Positions 5,214-6,208 of a DNA stretch of 15,020 bases are shown piece after piece. Origin of the DNA: Candidatus Desantisiibacteriota bacterium (GTDB taxonomy: Bacteria; JACRDZ01); NCBI GenBank assembly GCA_016209155.1, contig JACQWU010000165.1:1-15020 (forward strand), in the 5' to 3' direction. Each line of letters opens with the position of its first letter. The stretch's first letter is position 1. The notes under the pieces were generated by a model, which saw only the letters and a list, made by a program, of their open reading frames with translations, searched no databases and was not told the DNA's origin. Position numbers and translations under genes: made by a program.

Positions 5214-6208
5214 GTGTCAATGGCGTTTATCAGAATTTGAGTTTCGAGTTCGTTAAATGGGTTAGGGTTGTCAGAATAGGACATAATATCATTTAAACGA
5301 TTTTCAATCGATATGTCGGGGATGTCCGGTAGGTCAGACATTGGTAGGTCAGACATTCCTGTCTGATACCGATTGCCGTTGTTGTTGTTGTTGTTGTTGT
5401 TGTTGTTGTTGTTGTTGACAGGCAGGAATGCCTGCCCTACCGGTCCTACCGCCGGGTTTTCCGGTGTATTATTTAAAAACCATCCTGAATAATTAAATGT
5501 GTTATCCGTTAATCCTTTTTTTATTGGATTGTTATACATGTATTGCATTTTTTCTATTAATTCATTATTATCGCGAATTATTCTGTCAAAGGATTCGTCT
5601 TGCCAGATGCTTCCGGATTTATTATTTATTTTATTGATTTTATTTGCTGAAACTCCTTTGATGCCTTTCATTACTCTGGGTAAATCATAACCTTCGTTAG
5701 GTTTTAAAATTAGGTGCACATGGTCAGGCATAACAATTGAACAGAGTAAATGATAAAATTTATTATTACCTTCAATAATATGTATATGTACTATTTTTTG
5801 GTGTTCTTCTGATAGATTGTTATTTTGACGTACTCTGAAAGTAATAAAATAATAAGCGCCTTTCATTTGCCAATGTGGCAAATGGCGATTTTTAATATTC
5901 ATCACATTATTATCCGGGAGATCGGACATTGGCGGTAGGTCAGACATTGGTAGGTCAGACATTCCTGTCTGACACCGATTGTTGTTAACAGACATGTCAT
6001 TGACAGGCAGGAATGCCTGTCCTACCATTACCTTCGCCGGATGTTTGTTGTTGTCATTGATTGATTCCAATTTTTGTTTGAAATATGCTTTGAGGGATTC
6101 GGTTACCATATAATTTACAATTTCGCGCGGGGTATAAAATGAACCTGTCTGTTTTCTTGCTGTTGTTTGTGTCTCGTGATTGTAACTTGCCAATAGGTTT
6201 TCAAACAC
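5129..6208 (-). CDS. Central methyltransferase fragment fused in frame to a RAYT transposase and two REPINs
   Basis: This frame encodes 359 residues from 6208; the GTG there is not a real start, because the preceding codons (LDPELLGK) are also conserved family sequence. Residues 1-45 (FENLLASYNHETQTTARKQ, then TGSFYTPREIVNYM) and 300-349 (PNPFNELETQILINAIDTC, then KILDPACGSGAFPMG, with SAM-binding motif I at 337-343) are the catalytic core of an Eco57I-like methyltransferase. Between them lie about 240 foreign residues: REPIN peptides, a RAYT transposase (about 103-248) and a second REPIN with a 13-Asn run. The frame is broken at both ends. Upstream, the N-terminal fragment stops at 6229 with about 14 expected codons missing. 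Downstream, a frame change follows GSGAFPMG. Unless corrected, the gene cannot make a full methyltransferase. Confidence 0.85.
   Translation of the reverse strand: MFENLLASYNHETQTTARKQTGSFYTPREIVNYMVTESLKAYFKQKLESINDNNKHPAKVMVGQAFLPVNDMSVNNNRCQTGMSDLPMSDLPPMSDLPDNNVMNIKNRHLPHWQMKGAYYFITFRVRQNNNLSEEHQKIVHIHIIEGNNKFYHLLCSIVMPDHVHLILKPNEGYDLPRVMKGIKGVSANKINKINNKSGSIWQDESFDRIIRDNNELIEKMQYMYNNPIKKGLTDNTFNYSGWFLNNTPENPAVGPVGQAFLPVNNNNNNNNNNNNNGNRYQTGMSDLPMSDLPDIPDISIENRLNDIMSYSDNPNPFNELETQILINAIDTCKILDPACGSGAFPMGCLQKQMKCAIS
5314..5455 (+). repeat. REPIN (inverted pair of REP palindromes), low-coordinate side of the RAYT
   Basis: It contains a partial copy of the arm (GGTAGGTCAGACATT) directly before the full palindrome at 5348-5367. 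A (GTT)13 linker follows, then the second palindrome GACAGGCA-GGAA-TGCCTGCC at 5417-5436 with a CTACCGGTCCTACC tail. The last base of the first stem (T instead of C) and one base of the second are changed. On the coding strand it gives VGQAFLPVN, poly-Asn, then YQTGMSDLPMSDLP. Confidence 0.85.
5378..5416 (+). repeat. (GTT)13 trinucleotide microsatellite in the REPIN linker
   Basis: Thirteen uninterrupted GTT units (39 nt) read as AAC on the coding strand and encode a run of asparagine. The equivalent linkers of the other two REPINs carry only one to three such units mixed with other bases. This indicates expansion by slippage at this copy. Because the unit is three bases, length change does not break the frame. 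Confidence 0.95.
5465..5902 (-). CDS. REP-associated tyrosine transposase (RAYT, Y1/HUH family)
   Basis: The segment of about 146 residues begins at an ATG at 5902 (MNIKNRHLPHWQ). It shows the RAYT pattern: GAYYFITFRV at the N-terminus, the HUH metal-binding motif in VMPDHVHLIL, KGVSANKINK, IWQDESFDRII, and the tyrosine region MQYMYNNPIKKGL. In that last stretch the Tyr of the YxxxNP pattern (YMYNNP) is the likely catalytic residue. All recognisable catalytic residues are present. It has no stop codon of its own and reads straight into REPIN peptide and methyltransferase sequence; no good ribosome site precedes its ATG. RAYTs nick single-stranded DNA at REP hairpins and are thought to mobilise REPINs. 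Whether this one is expressed as a fusion or is inactive cannot be told. Confidence 0.88.
5911..6030 (+). repeat. REPIN (inverted pair of REP palindromes), high-coordinate side of the RAYT
   Basis: The first palindrome GTCAGACATTCCTGTCTGAC is at 5954-5973 and the second, GACAGGCA-GGAA-TGCCTGTC, at 6002-6021, both with perfect 8-bp stems. Two extra partial arms (GATCGGACATT and GGTAGGTCAGACATT) precede the first palindrome in tandem. The linker is short and contains GTTGTTAACAGACATGTC. On the coding strand it gives VGQAFLPVN and CQTGMSDLPMSDLP. Confidence 0.87.

Follow-up and report, generated by a model that had tools for sequence, protein, structure and literature searches.

A RAYT with flanking REPINs in frame inside a type IIG-like methyltransferase gene, and related gene-embedded RAYTs in other bacteria

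The RAYT-REPIN unit and its host operon

The window, by which we mean the whole 15,020-nucleotide stretch analysed here, comes from an assembly of a Candidatus Desantisiibacteriota bacterium (GCA_016209155.1, contig JACQWU010000165.1, positions 1 to 15,020) and contains a restriction-modification (R-M) operon in which, by Pfam, an Eco57I/TaqI_C type IIG-like methyltransferase adjoins a PLD + SNF2 helicase (Table 1). When the methyltransferase is read on the minus strand, one frame stays open from 6232 to ~5138 and encodes, in order, motif X, a REPIN, a REP-associated tyrosine transposase (RAYT), a second REPIN and motif I, in the form LDPELLGKVFENLL..TPREIVNYM..(REPIN)..RAYT..(REPIN)..DPACGSGAFPMG. 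The original prediction, that a complete RAYT-REPIN unit lies without a stop inside a methyltransferase gene, is therefore borne out: a 145-aa RAYT and two REPINs are present, and no stop interrupts the frame between motifs X and I. Across the unit (5323-6038) there are 0 stops in the host frame and 29, 19, 13, 16 and 9 in the other five, so the open frame is not a product of chance.

Table 1. Positions of the methyltransferase, the embedded unit, the neighboring genes and further REPs in the window
Feature	Position	Strand	Remarks
Single open frame (motif X + REPIN + RAYT + REPIN + motif I)	5138..6232	-	translation
Methyltransferase segment, motif X (FYTPREIVNYM)	6068..6232	-	identity 91% to L051, 94% to L226, 87% to L103
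REPIN, upstream (N-terminal) side of RAYT	5929..6038	-	in-frame translation VGQAFLPV...CQTGMSDLP
RAYT (REP-associated tyrosine transposase), 145 aa	5468..5902	-	without own stop; ATG 7 codons ahead of LPH motif
REPIN, downstream side of RAYT	5323..5453	-	AAC (poly-Asn) tract in frame within loop
Methyltransferase segment, motif I (DPACGSG)	5147..5308	-	
Methyltransferase N-terminal part	6229..7632	-	57% identity to L226 over 429 aa; frame change, ~12 codons lost
Methyltransferase C-terminal part (Eco57I + TaqI_C domains, NPPY)	3183..5213	-	frame change, ~29 codons lost
PLD + SNF2 helicase, same R-M operon	7751..10991	-	frame broken near 9126-9142
TIGR04255 family gene directly after methyltransferase	2317-3120		141 bits; REP at 5' end
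Third REPIN, linker of methyltransferase N-terminal part	7266..7369	-	in frame; not in L226
Single REP near methyltransferase C-terminus	3349..3374	-	in frame; not in L226
Single REP, SNF2 helicase C-terminal part	8186..8222	-	in frame
Single REP at 5' end of next gene (TIGR04255 family)	3088..3122	-	

The embedded protein passes the cut-off of the NCBIfam equivalog model NF047646, 'REP-associated tyrosine transposase' (88.1 bits against 80), and that of Pfam Y1_Tnp (36.6 bits against 23), and matches the RAYT structure 4er8 by sequence with an E of 2e-12. Its AlphaFold model (pLDDT 89.8) likewise has 4er8 as its top PDB match (E 5e-9, TM 0.72), as expected of a TnpA-REP fold. The HUH motif is HVH at residues 61-63, and Y121, in the tyrosine block QYMYNNP, aligns to the tyrosine of 4er8; all of these residues are invariant in A1 and A2. 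RAYTs described so far stand as genes in their own right, each with a start and a stop codon, a trait that lies outside the sequence family model, whereas here no stop is reached before host motif I. The window RAYT does retain an ATG, which most of its embedded relatives lack, and since this lies 7 codons before the conserved start, separate translation of the RAYT is possible, which counts against the explanation favored below.

The RAYT is flanked on either side by an inverted pair of REPs (5343-5365/5419-5441 and 5949-5971/6004-6026) that bear a GTAG tag (GGTAGG..CATTCCTG), and both REPINs, as single-stranded DNA, fold far better than shuffled sequences (z -5.4 and -6.1). The loop of the downstream REPIN carries an AAC repeat (~5380-5418) that reads as 13 Asn. 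REPs of the same family recur at 7266-7369, 3349-3374 and 8186-8222, always in the sole sense frame that is open across all copies; the two located in the methyltransferase are missing at the corresponding places of a Planctomycetota homologue, L226, indicating gain or loss after the split. In the genome as a whole (3.08 Mb) we found 14 REPs, 9 of them on the window contig and all 9 in this operon region.

The host gene is not intact. Outside the interval covered by the original prediction, its frame is broken at ~6229 and ~5137-5174; compared with L226, it is short of ~12 codons near 6229 and ~29 near 5165, with a change of frame each time. The SAM-binding motif I and NPPY are both present in different frames, whereas in L226 and in a second homologue, L051, they share a single one. 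The 384-aa gene that L226 has between methyltransferase and helicase is reduced in the window to its last 32 codons, and, taken together with the codon losses and the broken helicase, this indicates that the operon is decaying. Because the host is broken on both sides of the unit, a full fusion product is impossible in the window genome, which likewise weighs against the explanation favored below. Separately, a run of ~18 A in the N-terminal part of the methyltransferase (window ~7224-7241), read as poly-Phe, may be an assembly error or a mutation.

Homologues with a RAYT at the same linker

The alignment of homologues with and without the insert that had been suggested as a check shows the same linker to be occupied elsewhere. 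L051, from a separately deposited MAG titled as a desulfobacterium, carries a 74% identical RAYT there, in a 1404-aa frame that has both catalytic motifs and contains a 100-N scaffold gap within its first REP. Between the window and L051 the RAYTs differ with dN 0.17 and dS 1.58 (dN/dS ~0.11), and on this comparison of coding sequences the RAYT is under purifying selection. In L226 that linker is occupied by a RAYT only 38% identical to that of the window, which belongs to a different clade, within an intact 1534-aa frame. No RAYT occurs at the linker, the length of which varies among these comparisons, in Parabacteroides and Planktothrix plasmid homologues or in a same-genome paralogue (L103, L102 and L104). 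With two RAYT clades at a site that is empty in other homologues, the linker is permissive and was occupied at least twice. Simple common descent of the shared site is possible for the window and L051, the RAYTs of which are sisters (support 100/99), and fails for the L226 clade. In the AlphaFold model of L226 the RAYT domain is confidently predicted (pLDDT ~85) between disordered linkers; the methyltransferase part of that model is poor (mean pLDDT 59), and only the RAYT domain is confident.

These homologues bear directly on the suggestion, made in the original prediction, that the insertion is recent and neutral and struck a dying gene. On that view the RAYT would have arrived in a pseudogene, and what is read as an open frame would be a remnant. 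The host is indeed dying in the window, with methyltransferase and helicase both frame-broken and the neighboring gene seen in L226 almost wholly deleted, and so that part of the suggestion holds. As the main account it is unlikely, given that intact hosts carry a RAYT at that linker and that the dN/dS of the passenger is low. Since the RAYTs of L051 and L226 sit in intact frames, the insertion is not the cause of the decay, and we propose that the window today shows a relic host carrying an intact RAYT, the host having decayed later.

The same comparisons make it scarcely credible that an assembly error fused two loci, even though the window derives from a MAG assembly and shows the 18-A run and several deletions in host genes: RAYTs occupy the same linker in the independent MAGs of L051 and L226, and the GC content of the contig agrees with that of the genome's other contigs. 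For the class described below, a genome assembled as one 4.3 Mb contig (G241) has two RAYT fusions. No intergenic RAYT complete with start and stop codons was found at this position; the homologues show the opposite arrangement.

Embedded RAYTs in other genomes

We report the window as one member of a recurrent class and not as a unique case. We counted as embedded any RAYT in frame within a gene whose homology runs on at both sides. Among 386 genomes from across the bacteria 83 RAYTs matched, and by this definition 9 of them are embedded in long genes, 8 of these 9 in R-M genes. The hosts are three type IIG methyltransferases (the window, L167 and L169), four DUF1156 methyltransferases (L168, L171, L172 and L173, the last assigned by sequence and by a survey of RAYTs between host halves, without a Pfam scan), one HsdR (L170) and one SNF2 helicase (L174). 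Among 392 Planctomycetota genomes the figure is 25 of 131 RAYTs, the total being the sum of per-genome counts, and the hosts are FabZ (nine genomes), AlaS (3), ValS (2), LeuS, PurH, methyltransferases (7), a helicase and a flavoprotein; some of these (e.g. L066, L208, L233 and several FabZ) were assigned by sequence homology or the host-halves survey and not by Pfam. The phyla of G241, G141 and G367, with 2-8 genomes each, added little. The search for further stop-less RAYTs proposed in the original prediction thus yields copies in R-M, AlaS, ValS, LeuS, PurH and FabZ genes; the case first noticed is real, and its importance is that of a class extending beyond the R-M gene alone.

The range of hosts also bears on whether the RAYT contributes to the function of the R-M enzyme, perhaps by nicking DNA as an HUH domain and so strengthening restriction. 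The predominance of R-M genes in the broad sample, the recurrent sites and the retained catalytic residues would all fit such a role. We nevertheless consider it quite improbable, because homologues with an empty site exist, two different RAYT clades occupy the same linker, and AlaS, ValS, LeuS, PurH and FabZ show the same arrangement with no obvious use for a nuclease.

Among the hosts are genes of tRNA synthetases and of fatty-acid synthesis. The AlaS and ValS fusions exceed the NCBI alaS and valS cut-offs with the RAYT match lying mid-protein, and in two genomes (G466 and G445) the sole alaS found holds a RAYT; a third genome, G518, likewise has one alaS only, but there the frame changes upstream of the RAYT. 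In eight FabZ carriers the His of GHYPGSPLMPGVL and the Glu of CEACFQTGA, which we take to be the active site, are invariant. RAYTs in single-copy alaS and the preserved FabZ residues again argue against insertion into pseudogenes, which for the class as a whole is already hard to hold, even if one further host, the type IIG methyltransferase L169, has lost motif I at the site of its RAYT. In that gene (genome G063) the motif I segment is missing where the RAYT sits, and the host is probably inactive.

Among the DUF1156 methyltransferases, L168, L172 and L173, from three genomes of different families, have their RAYTs at the same linker, after FTPRQL..ALTTFSDLV..AR. These RAYTs are no closer to one another than to that of L171, which lies at another site, suggesting repeated acquisition of one site.

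The embedded copies carry marks of their position. The HUH and Tyr motifs are kept in 39 of the 40 embedded RAYTs examined. Of these 39, only 4, the window among them, have an ATG no more than 15 codons from the conserved start, whereas 8 of 12 stand-alone copies do (Fisher p = 0.0003). When RAYTs between the two halves of these host genes were collected in any frame, all 24 were in the sense orientation and 20/24 were in frame at both junctions, a share that is biased upwards since the set was drawn from long open frames. The tree requires at least four changes between the embedded and stand-alone states, so embedding arose several times. For the FabZ/AlaS group, the tree sets nearly all stand-alone RAYTs of the carrier genomes apart from the embedded ones (support 94/99), leaving as exceptions a single stand-alone copy, L267, and three distant ones. 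FabZ RAYTs group chiefly by site and lineage and less by genome. In one pair of FabZ carriers (L239 and L241) the hosts are nearly identical (dS 0.24) and the embedded RAYTs have a dS of 1.14, a gap that suggests replacement of the passenger, or recombination, at a fixed site. A scan of viral contigs gave mostly weak matches and no close relative, and plasmid records searched with the second RAYT clade gave weak matches only, mostly to annotated transposases.

A proposed translationally captive passenger and its relation to known elements

We suggest that a gene-embedded RAYT with its REPINs is probably a translationally captive passenger domain of its host gene; of the possibilities raised in the original prediction for a stop-less RAYT inside an R-M enzyme, that of a tolerated chimera fits best. 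On this reading, a type IIG-like methyltransferase would have received a RAYT-REPIN unit at a permissive surface linker, in frame and in the sense orientation, and the unit would then have lost its stop and, in most relatives, its start. With no stop and mostly no start, it would be expressed from the promoter and ribosome binding site of the host, as a domain within the host protein. The flanking REPINs would be translated as flexible linkers, allowing the transposase to fold independently and the host enzyme to tolerate the insert, and would still serve as RAYT substrates, the RAYT, freed or inside the fusion, presumably nicking and rejoining REPIN hairpins in trans. REPINs do occupy differing in-frame places in the window gene and its homologues. 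Any frameshift or premature stop arising in the passenger would cut the host protein short as well, and the passenger frame should thus stay open for as long as the host is useful, while selection against missense changes would preserve the catalytic residues. The evidence base for this mechanism consists of assemblies, many of them MAGs.

Alternatively, the segment might be cut out of the transcript or the protein, in the manner of an IStron or an intein. Removal would account for tolerance in essential genes, and it has a precedent in IStrons, which unite group I introns with IS elements (PMC4227781). Searches at Rfam gathering scores returned no intron in the window, L226, L222, L240, L051 or L217, those of window 5100-6300 gave sub-threshold chance families only, and no intein (Hint) domain was among the Pfam matches of the window frame and the embedded hosts scanned. 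Given these results, and an open frame that is kept though splicing needs none, we regard removal as very improbable.

A captive passenger of this kind differs in defined ways from the elements it most resembles. It shares with RAYT/REPIN systems (REPtrons) and TnpA-REP (PMC2817692; PMC3116915; PMC8266576) the HUH and Tyr transposase and the flanking inverted GTAG-type REPs, but those RAYTs are described as separate genes with a start and stop of their own, whereas the RAYT of the window is stop-less and internal to another gene. In-frame intragenic REPs and Rickettsia palindromic elements are already known (PMC3733652) and are likewise in-frame palindromic repeats, often in genes of DNA metabolism and tRNA synthetases; they are however ~20-80 aa long and without a transposase, while here a whole transposase gene lies inside. 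Inteins with homing endonucleases and IStrons are also mobile DNA nuclease genes in conserved hosts at recurrent sites, but they splice, whereas no splicing element was found for the embedded RAYT and the insert apparently stays in the product. In a large survey of the TnpA-Y1 family, proteins that were 'unexpectedly long' were put down to gene fusion or annotation error (PMC6006769); these were discarded without analysis and may include such fusions, so that embedded RAYTs may account for some of the over-long proteins put aside by surveys. A search of open-licence PMC papers turned up no account of a complete RAYT lying in frame within another gene.

In published accounts RAYTs are domesticated transposases that stand alone, and their persistence without self-copying still calls for an explanation. 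The fusions in AlaS, ValS, LeuS, FabZ and R-M genes offer a testable one, namely capture by a host reading frame. If the fusions are expressed as they read, bacteria tolerate, without splicing, inserts of ~180-250 aa that place an intact nuclease domain midway through an essential enzyme, and embedded RAYTs mark sites at which conserved enzymes naturally accept an insertion. The wider claim, that RAYTs include widespread, splicing-free in-frame passengers that are expressed from the host frame and catalytically active within the fusion, and so represent a third way besides introns and inteins of residing inside essential genes, is one on which we are evenly divided.

The surroundings of the operon have some features of their own. 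An IetA-like AAA ATPase is encoded at window 364-1335, and contig C334 (L106, 1-1251), which has three further REPs, starts with an IetS-like subtilase frame and may adjoin the left end of the window; no overlap was found between C334 and the window contig, C89. At the other end, window 13364-15020 and the remainder of the contig (L105) hold many genes that by eye, with no family match, resemble phage tail or structural genes, and the R-M locus may therefore adjoin a prophage.
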